A DNA stretch of 19,087 nt, taken from contig JAPOQV010000031.1 of the NCBI GenBank assembly GCA_026710565.1, forward strand, positions 1 to 19,087, written 5' to 3'. How positions within the stretch are numbered: position 1 is the stretch's first letter; every line of letters starts with the position of its first letter. The notes beneath the pieces are model-generated. The model was not told the DNA's origin and ran no database searches. It saw only the letters and a program-made list of their open reading frames with translations. Of this stretch, positions 328 through 17,669 are shown piece by piece. The position numbers were made by a program, and so were the translations under genes. The DNA comes from Spirochaetaceae bacterium. GTDB taxonomy: Bacteria > Spirochaetota > Spirochaetia > SZUA-6 > Bin103.

Positions 328-3596
<3,269 letters not shown>

Positions 3597-3600
<4 letters not shown>

Positions 3601-5201
3601 TCCACCCATCCCTGCAGATACCAGCGGCCGGTCAGTCGGTCGTAGTAGACCCACTCCAGAGTGCCGTTCGGCGCGCGGATGAAGTAGTAGGCCCGGTCGA
3701 CGCCTCCAGGCAGCCCGGTGCCGCCGGCGTGCCACCAGCCGCGGGAGATCAGGAAGGGGCCGTGGGCTGCGGACTTCGGCTGCGGTACCTCGACCGGCTG
3801 CCGCAGCATCCGACGCACCAGCCAGCCCGTCGCTGGCGGCTCCCGGCCGCTGCGTGCGTCCGGTTCCGGCAACACGACCGCGGCCACCGGCTGCCAGCGG
3901 AACTGCGCTTCCGGCAGATGCTCGTCGGAGAGCACAGCCCGGACCACGGCGTGGTTGCCGAACTGGGCGCGGATGCGCGCCAGCGCCTCCGACCCGGCCG
4001 CCGGGTCACGCTGCCTGAGCGTCCGGAACAGGGTCGCCTGACCCGCGTCCGCTCTCACGTGTTCGGCATCGACGGCCAGCTCATCGACCCCGGAGCTCAG
4101 GTCGAGTGCCCGCAGGCGGAGCTCGATCAGGTCGACCAGCGGCCGCCGCTCGCAGGTAGGAGCGGCAGGACGGATCATCTCGTGGCGGTGCGATCCGTCC
4201 TCCAGCAGCAGCCGCAGGTGCAGCGCCGCGACCGCCCGGTCCTCCTTCCGCAAGCGGTCGAGCAGCGTATCGAGCAGGCCCTCGACGTGCCGCTGCAGGC
4301 GCCCGGCGTCGGTCTCCGCATGAGACAGCCGCTTCCGGTGCAGGAACGGCGATACCGGGATGTCTCCCTGGACCGGCAACTCGAGCGCCGGCAAAACAGA
4401 GTCCTCCGGACTCTGTTTTGCCCCCATCCCCAACCTGCCTGAGAATCTGCCGCTGGCGCGGCAATTCCGACCGACTCCCAGCTCACCGCGGACCGAGCGG
4501 TGAACCGCCGCGGCATTGCCCCCGAAGCGCCGCAGCACCTCCGCGTAGGGAAGCCGCAGGAAGGCGTCGACCGTGGTGACGTCCAGCTTCTCCAGCAGGT
4601 CACGGACCTCGGGCTCCAGCGGCAGCCGCTCCAGCGGAGCCTGCCGGGCGGCGCTGCGCTCGGCGGCGGCATCTTCCACCACCAGGCAGCCGCGGCGCGC
4701 ATCGAGCGCCAGCAGGCGAGTGCCGATGCGGGTGTAGCCGATGACGACCGCGGCGTCGAACCGCACCTCGCCCAGGCGGTCCCGGATGGTCCGGGCCAGC
4801 GCCGCGGGCGATCGGTGGTGGCGCTGCAGGCCGGACACGTCCAGCCAGAACACGCCCGGCTCCGCGCACGCGGCATGCGACTCCGCATCCGTTCCCGAAC
4901 CGGCCCCTTCGACGAAGGGGCTGATGGAGAGCAGGCGGTCGATGATCAGCTCGACGCCGGCTGCCACTTCCCCTGGGCCGACGGTGCCCGCCTGCAGGTC
5001 CGCGGCCAGCGAGAGCGCCGCGGCGTAGCGCATGCCCACCCGCACCCCGGCGGCACGGGCCGTCCGGTTCACCGACACCACGATGCCCAGCGGCTTGTCC
5101 TCGCTGACTACCGCGGCGGGCCGGTCATGCCAGTCGGGATGACGGCGGAGCAGCAGTTGCAGAGGAAAGGAGCCGACTTCAACACACGCCGTACGGCGCA
5201 C
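3597..5201 (-). CDS. imuB: ImuB, inactive Y-family polymerase-like mutasome hub
   Basis: Y-family polymerase homologue of 534 residues that links DnaE2 to the replication clamp during damage-induced mutagenesis. The N-terminus LLLRRHPDWHDRPAAVV and the segment GVFWLDVSGL are typical of ImuB. The acidic metal-binding residues of active Y-family enzymes are not seen: the first motif reads ACVEVGSF rather than the DxD type, and the SxDE motif is missing. This agrees with the known non-catalytic role. QATLF at 388-392 fits the beta-clamp binding consensus QLxLF. The C-terminus, YYDRLTGRWYLQGW, is the conserved ImuB tail. The start overlaps imuA by 23 bp and the stop overlaps dnaE2 by 4 bp, so translation is probably coupled. 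A perfect 15-bp inverted repeat is embedded in frame around residues 260-270 and may be an inserted element. Confidence 0.95.
4390..4422. repeat. Perfect 15-bp inverted repeat inside imuB
   Basis: Arms GGCAAAACAGAGTCC (4390-4404) and its exact reverse complement (4408-4422) are separated by three bases. On the coding strand it is read in frame as AKQSPEDSVLPA. The segment is A+T-richer than its surroundings and sits where ImuB proteins are poorly conserved, just ahead of the little-finger-like region. It may be a small mobile palindromic element inserted in frame, or a structured mRNA segment. No second copy was noticed in the window. Confidence 0.75.
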
Positions 5202-5871
5202 GGTAGGTGGTGTCCAGAGATCGGCCCGGCCCCCGCCGCCGGTCCTTGATCACGTCGATGCGGTAACGGAAGCGGCCGTGCCGCGGAGCGGCGTGGCGCG
5301 CGCCCCGGCCGCGCAGCGACACCAGCGAGCCCAGCTCGGTGCCGGGCGTGGTGAGGAAGAGCAGGGCGGTGTCGTGCTGCCGGGCCAGGCGCATCAGGCG
5401 CCCGAGCACCGCCGCCGGGATGATCCGGCCGGAGTCCAGCTCCAGCAGGACCAGGCCGAACGCACCGGAGCGGGTCAGGCGCTCGGCGGCGGTGACCGAG
5501 GCGCGCAGGTCGGGTACCTGCACCACCGGCAGCGCCGCCAGGTCGACTCCGGCCCGCGCCAGGTCGGGCGGGAAGAAGAGGTCGGAGCTGGTCGTGACCC
5601 AGGCCGTGGTCTCCGCCGATCGCTGGAACTCGCGGACGATCGCGCAGGCCAGCGTCAGATGGACCCGCCGCGGGGCCGCGCAGAGCTCGCAGAGACGGCC
5701 CGCCAGCTCTGCCGGCCCCCAGACGCCGGTCTGCCCGTCAGCGGCGGGTGCTCCCGGATCGACTGCGAGGTCGGCAGCGCGCATCAGCCGGCACGGGAGC
5801 CCGCTCAGGGCGCTGCGGCGCGCGTGGTCATCGTGGCTTTGCAGCTCAGCCCGAGGATACCTGTTGAACAT
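5179..5871 (-). CDS. imuA: ImuA, RecA-like mutasome accessory protein
   Basis: Small RecA-fold protein of 230 residues encoded first in the imuA-imuB-dnaE2 run. It is recognised mainly by position and by the core GVWGPAELAGRLCELCAAPRR plus FFPPDLARAGVDLAALPVVQ and LTRSGAFGLVLLEL, which match the strand-helix pattern of ImuA/SulA-type RecA relatives. There is no Walker A GxxxxGK[ST] motif, so ATP binding in the RecA manner is unlikely, a common situation in ImuA. In well-studied species ImuA is needed for the mutasome but has no polymerase activity. The ATG at 5871 is the first start after the operator region; no clear ribosome binding site was seen, so the exact start is uncertain. A pair of LexA-box-like sites lies 8-41 bp upstream, making it the second LexA-controlled promoter of the cassette. 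Confidence 0.85.
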   Translation of the reverse strand: MFNRYPRAELQSHDDHARRSALSGLPCRLMRAADLAVDPGAPAADGQTGVWGPAELAGRLCELCAAPRRVHLTLACAIVREFQRSAETTAWVTTSSDLFFPPDLARAGVDLAALPVVQVPDLRASVTAAERLTRSGAFGLVLLELDSGRIIPAAVLGRLMRLARQHDTALLFLTTPGTELGSLVSLRGRGARHAAPRHGRFRYRIDVIKDRRRGPGRSLDTTYRAPYGVC

Positions 5872-5878
5872 GGTACGA

Positions 5879-5912
5879 GCACAAATGTCTTTCTTGATGA
5901 AGACATTTGTCT
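5879..5912. promoter_or_regulatory. Probable paired LexA operator in front of imuA
   Basis: ACAAATGTCTT (5881-5891) and AAGACATTTGT (5900-5910) form a perfect 11-bp inverted repeat with an 8-bp spacer. Each arm lies in a 12-bp site resembling AGACAWWTGTCT (5879-5890 and 5901-5912). The two centres are 22 bp apart, about two helical turns, so two repressor dimers could bind on one face. The right-hand site extends into a 19-bp stretch (5896-5914) whose minus-strand reading, ACAGACAAATGTCTTCATC, recurs with one mismatch at lexA. The operator role is inferred from this sharing. Confidence 0.75.
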
Positions 5913-5940
5913 GTAATTGGATCGGATGTCGTCGCCTGCG

Positions 5941-6588
5941 TCAACCCGCGGGCGACGATCCTTCCAGATAGCGGCGCACCTCGATCACCCTGCCCAGGAT
6001 CCTCACCTCGTCCGGGGCGGGAGTGATGGGATCGAAGGCGGGGTTGGCCGGGTGCAGCTCGATCCTGCCGGCGCGCAGCTTCAGCCGCTTCACCGTCGCC
6101 TCGTCCTCCACCAGGGCGACGACGATGTCGCCGGAGCGGGCGCTGTCCTGACGAAGCACGATCACCACGTCCCCCGGCAGGATGGCGGCATCGCGCATGC
6201 TGTCGCCGCGAACCCGCAGGGCGAACAGCTCGCCGCGGTCGGCGGACGATTGCACCGCCACGAACCCCTCCGGATCTTCGACCGCCGTGGTGAGGGCGCC
6301 CGCCTGCACGCGGCCGACCAAGGGGATCAGGACGGTGGGGTGACCGGAGCCGGCGGGCAGCCGGTAGCCGCGCGCCTTGCCCGGCTCCTTGTCCAGCAGC
6401 CCGTCGCGCACCAGCGCTTCCAGATGCGCTCGCGCGGACTGCACGGCGCGAAAGCCGAAGTGCTCCTGCACCTCACGGGTCGTGGGTGGCGAGCCGGCCA
6501 GGATGCGGTCGCGCACGAACAGGAAGATGCGGCGCCTGCGCCCCTCGGACCGTGACGAGGAGCGTCCGGCATCGCGCATGGCTGCCAT
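5941..6588 (-). CDS. lexA: LexA repressor (SOS regulator, S24 self-cleaving)
   Basis: About 215 residues. An N-terminal winged helix contains SPPTTREVQEHFGF and the recognition region around 47-60. A linker follows, then the S24 latent protease domain. The self-cleavage Ala-Gly bond is in VGRVQAG (96-97), the catalytic serine is S130 in VRGDSMRDAAILPGD, and the lysine is K167 in EDEATVKRLK. LexA represses SOS genes until RecA filaments stimulate cleavage. The frame stays open to a TTG at 6615, but that codon is inside an operator palindrome and forms a TTGACA promoter-like hexamer, so I place the start at ATG 6588; ATG 6579 is also plausible. Neither has an obvious ribosome binding site. The gene heads the imuA-imuB-dnaE2 cassette (70-bp gap to imuA), a known lexA-linked arrangement. 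Confidence 0.95.
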   Translation of the reverse strand: MAAMRDAGRSSSRSEGRRRRIFLFVRDRILAGSPPTTREVQEHFGFRAVQSARAHLEALVRDGLLDKEPGKARGYRLPAGSGHPTVLIPLVGRVQAGALTTAVEDPEGFVAVQSSADRGELFALRVRGDSMRDAAILPGDVVIVLRQDSARSGDIVVALVEDEATVKRLKLRAGRIELHPANPAFDPITPAPDEVRILGRVIEVRRYLEGSSPAG

Positions 6589-6616
6589 TGACAGACATAT
6601 GTCTTCATCTGTCAAT
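6587..6616. promoter_or_regulatory. Probable LexA operator and promoter of lexA
   Basis: ATTGACAGA (6587-6595) and TCTGTCAAT (6608-6616) are exact reverse complements, and within them AGACATATGTCT (6593-6604) is a perfect 12-bp palindrome. The plus-strand run ACAGACATATGTCTTCATC (6591-6609) differs by one base from the minus-strand run in front of imuA. TTGACA on the minus strand (6615-6610) could be a -35. The stop codon of the M23 peptidase gene (6612-6614) lies inside this element. Autoregulation is inferred. Confidence 0.75.
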
Positions 6617-14820: not shown

Positions 14821-14850
14821 TTGCCATGTCCGACAAACTCGTCCTAGACT
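14821..14850 (+). promoter_or_regulatory. Promoter of the histone-like gene
   Basis: TTGCCA (14821-14826) and TAGACT (14845-14850) are separated by 18 bp, giving a predicted start near 14857 and a leader of about 54 bases. The remainder of the 141-bp gap from the VanZ-like gene shows no further gene. Confidence 0.4.
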
Positions 14851-14897: not shown

Positions 14898-14904
14898 AGG
14901 AGGT
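14898..14904 (+). promoter_or_regulatory. Strong ribosome binding site of the histone-like gene
   Basis: AGGAGGT ends six bases before ATG 14911, a near-perfect match to the anti-Shine-Dalgarno sequence. It stands out because most neighbouring genes have weak or no such site, and it suggests high protein output. Confidence 0.8.
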
Positions 14905-14910
14905 GCGCTC

Positions 14911-15096
14911 ATGTCGAACGAGGTCCTGGTAGTCGCGTCCAAGGTAAAGGCCTATATCAAGTCCGCAGCAGGATTTAACACGTCCGCTACGGCAGTCGAC
15001 GCACTGTCGAGCAAGGTCAAGGAAGTCTGCGACGCGGCGATCGAAGCGGCGCGCAAGGATCGGCGCAAGACGGTGAAGGACCGGGACATCTCGTAG
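14911..15096 (+). CDS. Bacterial histone-fold protein (Bd0055-like)
   Basis: Protein of 61 residues with a minimal histone fold. Helix 1 is VVASKVKAYIKSA (7-19), loop 1 is GFNTSATA, the long helix 2 runs about 28-50, and loop 2 carries RRKTVKDRDI (51-60), which matches the archaeal histone signature GRKTVKxEDI almost residue for residue. Helix 3 is essentially absent, as the protein ends one residue later, a feature of short bacterial histones. The length and the N-terminal pattern match Bd0055 of Bdellovibrio bacteriovorus, a DNA-binding chromatin protein, and related Leptospira proteins. Eleven Lys/Arg residues against nine Asp/Glu give a slightly basic protein. It should act as a dimer that bends or coats DNA. 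It has its own promoter, a very strong ribosome binding site and a downstream hairpin, so it is probably an abundant single-gene transcript. Confidence 0.88.
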   Translation: MSNEVLVVASKVKAYIKSAAGFNTSATAVDALSSKVKEVCDAAIEAARKDRRKTVKDRDIS

Positions 15097-15112
15097 CGCC
15101 GGCGCACGTCCC

Positions 15113-15154
15113 GAGACGGACAGGAGCCGGCGTTCCGCCGGCGCTGCCCGTCTC
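15113..15154 (+). terminator. Strong hairpin after the histone-like gene
   Basis: GAGACGG (15113-15119) pairs with CCGTCTC (near 15148-15154), CAG with CTG, and GCCGGCG with CGCCGGC around a TTC loop, leaving one mismatch and a small bulge. No T-run follows, so it may be a U-less terminator or a 3'-end stabiliser. It starts 16 bases after the histone stop codon. Confidence 0.55.
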
Positions 15155-15195
15155 GCGCGCCGTTGCCGGGCCCCACACAGCGACATCAGCCGAGC

Positions 15196-16308: not shown

Positions 16309-17242
16309 GGCGGCCGACGCCGCCCATGCGCCCCGGCTGCCGCTCTCCCTGATCCTGGACGACTGCGCGCCGATCAACGCCGCGTACTTCATGCATCCGG
16401 AGCAGGAGCACGTCCTGTCGATCCCGAACTCGTTCGCCGACGAGTTCGCGTCGGTCTGCGAATCGCACGGCGTCCGTGGCAAGTATTCGGTGTTGCCCAT
16501 GCCGTCCGGGGCCGGGCGCATCGACCGCCGGGTCAGCTACGTCGCCCCGTCCGACCTGGAACGGTTCCTGGACATCGTCCGCTCCCGTTTGACGGTCCGT
16601 TTCGACATCACGGCGGAGATCCTCACGCACCTTGCCGCGTACGACATCGACAATGACCGGCTGCTCCACCGCTACGAAGATGAATGGATCGCCACAGCCA
16701 GCGTGGCGGAGATGGTGCGCTACATCAGCCTGGCGCTCACCATCCTGAACAACGTCGGCCTGCCGGCGAACGGCGTCACGTCATGCTGGCGTGCCGGCAT
16801 GGGCAAGGAGGAGCAGTTCGCCCGCGCGATCGGAGAGGCGCAATACGCGGTCAACGGGCGCACGTTCAGTTGGTACTTCATGCACATGGACGTGCGCGGC
16901 CGTCCCCGCGACCCGTTCGTGGCATGGCGGGATGCGGACCGTGGGATCGCGGTGGTGTCGCAGCCGTGCGGGGTCGCGGACCTGCTCGGCCGTCACCCCT
17001 CCGAGATCGACGGCATCATCAGTTCCGACGGCCGAAGCGGCCGGATTCCGGAACTGATCCGCTACGGACAGCCGGTCGTCATGCTCACGCATTGGCAGTC
17101 GCTGTTCGACGACGGGTCGGCCGCCGGTCTCAGGGACCTCGATGAGGTGCTAAAGCGAATCGGCCGCCACTACGGCGGCCGACTCATCTGGATGCGGTGC
17201 AGCGAGATTGCCCGCACCGCGCTGGAAAGAGAGTTGAGTTGA
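16301..17242 (+). CDS. Polysaccharide-deacetylase-like protein, function unknown
   Basis: Protein of 313 residues that looks like a divergent member of the glycoside hydrolase/deacetylase (NodB-like) fold. The opening strand LPLSLILDDCAPINA places two aspartates (D20, D21) where NodB enzymes have their catalytic DD pair. HGVRGKYSVLPMP (56-68) corresponds to the next strand of the barrel, and the late VVMLTHWQSLF to a histidine-bearing strand. The HxxxH zinc motif of true deacetylases is not evident, so the chemistry may differ. No signal peptide is seen, so the protein is probably cytoplasmic. It overlaps the GNAT gene by 8 bp; an acetyltransferase beside a deacetylase-like fold suggests one pathway acting on an amino sugar or similar compound, which is inference only. 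Confidence 0.6.
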   Translation: MSEAADAAHAPRLPLSLILDDCAPINAAYFMHPEQEHVLSIPNSFADEFASVCESHGVRGKYSVLPMPSGAGRIDRRVSYVAPSDLERFLDIVRSRLTVRFDITAEILTHLAAYDIDNDRLLHRYEDEWIATASVAEMVRYISLALTILNNVGLPANGVTSCWRAGMGKEEQFARAIGEAQYAVNGRTFSWYFMHMDVRGRPRDPFVAWRDADRGIAVVSQPCGVADLLGRHPSEIDGIISSDGRSGRIPELIRYGQPVVMLTHWQSLFDDGSAAGLRDLDEVLKRIGRHYGGRLIWMRCSEIARTALERELS

Positions 17243-17251
17243 TACGCAGGC

Positions 17252-17301
17252 GGCGTTCACGCTCGTCGAACGAGAATGCTCGTCGAACGAGAATGAACGC
17301 C
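17252..17301. terminator. Tandem 17-bp hairpin repeat between convergent genes
   Basis: CTCGTCGAACGAGAATG occurs twice head to tail (17262-17278 and 17279-17295). Each copy can fold on itself (CTCGT-CGA-ACGAG), and the pair is enclosed by GGCGTTC (17252-17258) and GAACGCC (17295-17301), which are reverse complements. It sits between the ends of the deacetylase-like gene and the RRM gene and may end transcription from both sides, although there is no T-run. Confidence 0.55.
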
Positions 17302-17321
17302 GTCCCGGCAGGCTGCCCGGC

Positions 17322-17669
17322 CTACCAGCGCCTGGGGCCGCCTCCGCCTCCGCCTCCGGGTCCGCGGTCGCGGCGGCCGCCTCCGCCTCCGCCGCCGCCG
17401 CCTCCGCCGCCGCGATCACCGCGCGCGCTGCGCGCTTCCTCGCCGGTCAGGTCCCGCCCGTCAAGCTCTGCCCCGTTCATTCCGCGAACCGCGGCGGCGG
17501 CTTCCTCGTCCGAGCCCATTTCCACGAATCCGAAACCGCGCGAGCTTCCGGAGTAACGATCCGTCACCACCTCAGCGGATTCAACCTTGCCATGCTGTGC
17601 AAACAGCTGGAATAGCGTTTCATCGGTAGCGCTGAACGGCAGGCCCCCGATATAGAGTCTTTTTCCCAT
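17322..17669 (-). CDS. Single-RRM glycine-rich RNA-binding protein
   Basis: Protein of 115 residues. One RNA-recognition motif fills about residues 3-79 with both signature motifs intact: RNP2 LYIGGL (5-10) and RNP1 RGFGFVEM (44-51), which bring aromatic residues to single-stranded RNA. The tail (about 84-115) is glycine-rich with interspersed arginine and ends GPRRW, like the cold-induced Rbp proteins of cyanobacteria and similar proteins elsewhere in bacteria. Such proteins bind RNA, often as chaperones during cold or stress responses; the target here is unknown. The tail is encoded by repeated GGC/GGA triplets, so its length may vary between strains. On the minus strand TTGCCT and TAAGCT at 17-bp spacing end 9 bases before ATG 17669, predicting an almost leaderless transcript. 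Confidence 0.93.
   Translation of the reverse strand: MGKRLYIGGLPFSATDETLFQLFAQHGKVESAEVVTDRYSGSSRGFGFVEMGSDEEAAAAVRGMNGAELDGRDLTGEEARSARGDRGGGGGGGGGGGGRRDRGPGGGGGGGPRRW

Follow-up and report, generated by a model that had tools for sequence, protein, structure and literature searches.

A stretch of DNA of 19,087 nucleotides, hereafter the window, carries a real histone gene of the HBb type, which belongs to a family that has already been described. We consider it very likely that the product is a dimeric histone that bends DNA independently of sequence and works beside HU, as judged by analogy with HBb of Bdellovibrio bacteriovorus. The class and its hosts among the Spirochaetia are already published, and the window gene adds a sound further member.

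Family assignment and predicted fold

The open reading frame comprises 61 codons and a stop codon (ATG start, TAG stop) and encodes the protein MSNEVLVVASKVKAYIKSAAGFNTSATAVDALSSKVKEVCDAAIEAARKDRRKTVKDRDIS, which contains RRKTVKDRDI. A first-pass annotation of the sequence had called this product a short bacterial histone like Bd0055 (HBb), and profile and homology searches bear this out. The PF00808 (CBFD_NFYB_HMF) model matches with an E value of 7.1e-5 and 23.4 bits, above its gathering cut-off of 21.4 bits, in a match confined to residues 28-61. The archaeal histone model NF043032 (an NCBIfam superfamily model) matches at 2.8e-6 and 27.7 bits, below its 50-bit cut-off. Among proteins of solved structure, the top sequence match is Bdellovibrio HBb/Bd0055 (2.3e-11), with 29 of 57 residues (51%) identical in the BLASTP segment; Leptospira HLp is next (1.7e-9), followed by weaker matches that include archaeal histones. 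A protein search yielded 112 candidates, 111 of which are homologues at E ≤ 0.001, the best being 98% identical. The nearest named locus, L001, is from an uncultured Spirochaetia bacterium, and its histone is 90% identical.

An AlphaFold2 single-chain model, based on a 65-row alignment (pLDDT 82.9, pTM 0.61), predicts helices at residues 7-20, 26-49 and 57-60 (Table 1). The long central helix that a histone reading had called for is therefore present in the model, and the claim that almost no third helix exists also agrees with it, since helix 3 is a single turn. A helix 3 of only three or four residues is characteristic of the class of bacterial dimers. In a Foldseek comparison with the PDB, HBb entries rank first (8FVX, TM 0.83), followed by HLp (TM 0.75-0.76) and the archaeal histone HTkC.

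Table 1. Features of the histone gene and its flanks (window coordinates)
Feature	Position	Strand	Basis or remark
Candidate promoter-like -35 hexamer TTGCCA	14821..14826	+	CGTTGCCA conserved at this position in L001
Candidate promoter-like -10 hexamer TAGACT	14845..14850	+	18-nt spacer
Shine-Dalgarno site AGGAGGT	14898..14904	+	6 nt before ATG; L001 has AAGGAGGT
Histone-fold protein gene	14911..15096	+	61 aa; profile, homologue and fold searches
Helix 1, codons 7-20	14929..14970	+	model; S10, K11, K13 and K17 correspond to HBb DNA contacts
Central helix 2, codons 26-49	14986..15057	+	model; probable dimer interface by analogy with HBb
Loop 2 DNA-binding motif and R52-D59 clamp, codons 52-59 (RKTVKDRD)	15064..15087	+	family conservation
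One-turn helix 3, codons 57-60	15079..15090	+	model
GC-rich hairpin after the stop codon	~15099..15169	+	folding energy; lacks a T-run

Ten residues of HBb that contact DNA are given in PMC11317129, and nine of them are identical in the window protein when the two sequences are aligned. The exception, T8, is replaced by alanine, as it is in 109 of 112 protein rows. The basic ridge of the window protein is made up of S10, K11, K13, K17, N23, S25, K53, T54 and R58. Across the 112 rows, query included, some of these contacts are nearly fixed (S10 in 112, K11 in 112, K13 in 111, T54 in 111), and others are less constant (N23 in 48, K53 in 69, R58 in 57). The clamp residues R52 and D59 occur in 111 and 112 rows, respectively. 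The helix 1 lysines K11, K13 and K17, together with an RKTxxxD motif (here RKTVKDRD), are further characteristics of the bacterial dimers that the window protein displays. PMC11317129 also names five interface residues of HBb, of which V11, L31 and I59 are retained as V12, L32 and I60, and I35 and L38 are valines (V36 and V39). HBb (PDB 8FVX, 8CMP, 9EZZ, 9F0E) resembles the window protein in length as well, and has an aspartate, D49, at a position where the window protein also carries D; it differs in that the host of the window gene is probably a spirochaete.

HBb is reported to be exclusively dimeric and to bend DNA (PMC11317129), and the best reading of the window protein is as a small, basic α3 histone of the bacterial dimer class (HBb type), with its dimeric state taken from HBb. 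Two copies would pair through helix 2, and the basic ridge of the dimer would touch the DNA backbone at minor grooves, without sequence preference. The dimer would then bend DNA as HBb does, and would neither form tetramers nor wrap DNA in the manner of archaeal histones or Leptospira HLp.

Other histone classes share less with this protein. Archaeal nucleosomal histones (HMf type) have the RxTxxxxD motif and the overall histone fold in common with it, but their helix 3 has about ten residues (PMC11390915) rather than four. The archaeal tetramer contact that PMC10627809 describes involves a histidine, and the window protein has none. The ZZ histones (L010, Bdellovibrionaceae) have a related histone part, 57% identical in L010, whereas the window frame consists of the histone fold only and lacks the N-terminal ZZ zinc finger. 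In L010 itself, a longer frame (5704-6183) has a Cys-rich N-terminal region ahead of the histone fold, which fits the ZZ class described in PMC11390915.

Dimers and face-to-face tetramers

Face-to-face (FtF) tetramers and bacterial dimers are both placed among the α3 (short helix 3) histones in PMC11390915. The window protein could instead be an FtF histone that wraps approximately 60 bp of DNA, as does the tetrameric, DNA-wrapping HLp of Leptospira perolatii (PDB 9QT0; PMC12701072). Leptospira probably belongs to the same phylum as the host of the window gene, HLp is the next solved structure after HBb in both sequence and fold searches, and it shares short helices 2 and 3, the RD clamp and the helix 1 lysines. 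The first-pass annotation had predicted that a truncated helix 3 would change how dimers contact each other and DNA; such effects are indeed known, but they have already been published, for both HBb and HLp.

The FtF reading is nonetheless unlikely. The FtF tetramer residues of HLp are R49 and N53 (PMC12701072), which we take to be the R48 and N52 of the numbering in PMC11390915. They align with A46 and D50, so the window protein lacks the arginine and asparagine at the tetramer interface that characterize FtF α3 histones (HLp, HTkC). The pair occurs in 44 of the 112 protein rows (query included, itself without the pair) and in 59 of 79 named genome loci, which by their titles are mostly from Planctomycetota. 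It is found in none of the 13 histones of L001's order (12 aligned rows plus that of genome G001, represented by L001). In the phylum as a whole, 30 of the 48 matching loci were fetched, and 29 plus G001 (as L001) were classified, the 18 weakest being left unclassified; six of the 29 carry the pair.

A tree was also inferred, which we treat as a hint only: its 125 rows were compared over 59 columns, its bootstrap had not settled and its root was set at the midpoint. Left out beforehand were P0066-P0112, the majority of FtF loci, HTkC and rows whose cores were identical. A 34-row clade (97/96) contains both the sampled FtF rows and the window clade, a placement that would favor the FtF reading but that comes from 59 columns under midpoint rooting with unsettled bootstrap. 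The position of the FtF rows hints weakly that the FtF and bacterial dimer types of α3 histone might not be separate branches. A further hallmark of the bacterial dimers is clustering with HBb in a published CLANS sequence map; HBb is the top PDB sequence match of the window protein, but it does not lie beside the window clade in this 59-column tree.

Histones without the FtF pair were also seen at L005, L006 and L009, in metagenome-assembled genomes titled Gammaproteobacteria, Myxococcales and Chromatiales. For L006, transfer or a binning error is possible, because the tree pairs it with L008, from a Spirochaeta metagenome-assembled genome (100/90).

Signals flanking the gene

The gene had been proposed to have its own promoter, a near-perfect ribosome site in contrast to the weak or missing sites of its neighbors, and a strong downstream hairpin. 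The statement about the ribosome site holds. The duplex energy of AGGAGGT with the ribosome is -11.6 kcal/mol, and no other of the 382 ATGs on the two strands of the window pairs as strongly. At the first listed starts of 16 other genes the value is +1.2 to -6.4 kcal/mol; these first listed starts may not be the true ones, and alternative starts reach -9.8 kcal/mol. The heptamer itself is present at two further places in the window. AGGAG lies no more than 22 nt from the start in 23 of 30 relatives with a plausible histone frame, a tally that was made by eye and is biased upward, since the start was chosen by the best site. A good ribosome site therefore appears usual in the family.

The candidate promoter TTGCCA-18-TAGACT, which matches at only 9 of 12 positions, is the only such site in a 1,401-base region, where 0.1 would be expected. 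L001 has TTGCCA-17-CAGAAT at the same place (likewise 0.1 expected). The sequence CGTTGCCA is the longest run conserved with L001 upstream of the ribosome site.

The hairpin is indeed strong, and it recurs in L001, but without the T-run of an intrinsic terminator. It folds at -48.3 kcal/mol (z -3.1), a value matched by 2 of 200 shuffled sequences, and ranks first in stability among the 17 gene ends of the window. Of 254 sliding stretches taken across the window, 3.1% reach this z score, and lower values occur at two other ends, those of the convergent orf16301 and RRM genes, whose strong hairpins (17242-17322) have z scores of -5.0 and -4.7. A hairpin of different sequence stands at the same place in L001, with a z score of -8.5; none of the other seven gene ends tested in L001 is as stable. 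A terminator scan found no T-run after the hairpin in the window or in L001; the one terminator-like site in L001 lies upstream of the histone start. We therefore rejected a canonical intrinsic terminator for the window hairpin, which possibly marks a transcript end or acts as a 3' stabilizer.

Codon usage is harder to interpret. As a reference, we used 12 genes of G001, with starts partly set by hand, which we take from general knowledge to be those of the S10 operon region; the first quarters of window genes were dropped before counting. Within this reference, in which ribosomal and ordinary genes differ little, a codon score at least as high as that of the window histone is found in 61% of ribosomal pieces, 1.2% of background pieces from L001 and 11% of those from the window. 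For the L001 histone, the corresponding figures are 2.25%, 0% and 1.65%. Third-position GC is 0.79 in the window histone, and both histone genes are below every other gene measured, so the codon score may partly reflect base composition. Overall, the gene is probably transcribed alone and translated from its strong ribosome site, and the signals around it suggest high expression, insofar as such signals predict it. The abundant chromatin protein of the first-pass annotation is likewise a suggestion drawn from sequence signals.

Relatives, HU and a putative role

Nine genes occur in the same order in the window and in L001, at 63-96% identity: lexA, M23, M81, MFS, an aldo/keto reductase, VanZ, the histone, an RRM protein and a second aldo/keto reductase. 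L001 has no match to four window genes that are interspersed with these nine or adjoin them (orf7658, orf10948, the carbon-nitrogen hydrolase gene and orf16301). Of the GNAT gene next to the histone on its downstream side, L001 matches only 42 residues, at its positions 6203-6328, directly after its own histone. The two histone genes differ at 22 nucleotides (15 silent, 7 replacement) over 61 codons, with a dN/dS of 0.12 (Nei-Gojobori). The histone has been kept by selection, and kept in place amid the turnover of its neighbors. As judged from L001 and the shared gene order, the host very probably belongs to the class Spirochaetia.

Two neighboring regions merit separate mention. The RRM RNA-binding protein (17322-17669, minus strand) has a glycine-rich tail, and its first 82 residues are 96% identical to the L001 copy, a value above that for the adjoining histone. 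On the minus strand at 328-6615, lexA, an ORF without a Pfam match, imuB (IMS domain) and a gene for a dnaE2-like polymerase form one run. This is presumably the layout of an SOS mutagenesis cassette, with the Pfam-less ORF assumed to be imuA-like by its position. In G001, lexA is kept and a 48-residue match to the imuA-like ORF lies within ~8 kb beside it; imuB and dnaE2 have no match in the ~8 kb next to lexA.

A profile built from 65 close relatives, whose matches do not distinguish histone classes, gives a single histone match apiece in 13 of the 26 genomes that represent the order of L001, and across the phylum it matches 48 of 392 sampled genomes; many relatives therefore do without one. 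In a survey of 18,343 bacterial genomes by Hocher et al., 1.86% had a histone fold and 92.8% had HU (PMC10627809). The first-pass remark that few lineages are known to have histones of this kind has in part been overtaken, since PMC11390915 already names the class Spirochaetia among hosts of bacterial dimer α3 histones. The HU family (PF00216) is present in all 26 genomes of the order, and two Leptospira species studied in PMC12701072 are without HU. In 12 of the 13 histone-bearing genomes, the HU match is in a frame of at most 131 residues, and in the remaining one (G017) it is found only in a 297-residue frame. Because HU is universal in the order, the histone would work as an architectural protein alongside HU, rather than as its replacement.

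The same figures can be read differently. A protein found in only half of the order's genomes, all of which have HU, might have a job outside chromatin, for example as a member of a complex, like eukaryotic TAFs, and roles of this kind have been raised for some prokaryotic histone-fold proteins (PMC11390915, PMC10627809). We regard this as improbable. The DNA contacts S10, K11, K13 and T54 are nearly fixed, though N23, K53 and R58 vary. Moreover, no neighboring gene recurs in more than four of 43 histone loci, window included and with flanks often only ~1.5 kb, so no partner is suggested; the recurring families comprise the histone, frames that overlap or run antisense, and local synteny shared by three or four loci. 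In many Leptospira, SMC, MAP and DUF350 neighbors are reported (PMC12701072); these are absent from the Pfam matches of the 16 window neighbors, four of which have no match. Finally, the patchy distribution could reflect a silent relic or a recent transfer with no present function, but this is highly improbable because, as the first-pass annotation had maintained in denying a relic, the low dN/dS, the conserved gene order and the upstream signals shared with L001 indicate a maintained gene.

The dimeric HBb-type histone therefore remains our preferred reading. Whether it is, in addition, a strongly expressed, major nucleoid protein of an HU-keeping spirochaete lineage is a more tentative matter, and on the sequence signals we think it possible but somewhat doubtful. 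If true, histone- and HU-based DNA bending would operate together in bacteria other than the predatory bdellovibrios. PMC12701072 describes HBb as the only bacterial histone besides HLp that has been studied by experiment, and in the literature searched we found no experimental work on an HBb-type histone from a spirochaete. The window gene clearly represents the HBb type, and its host probably shares a phylum with Leptospira, whose histone is tetrameric. Through the clade of the window gene one could test the kinship of dimeric benders and tetrameric wrappers, as well as the contribution that a histone makes in cells already equipped with HU.
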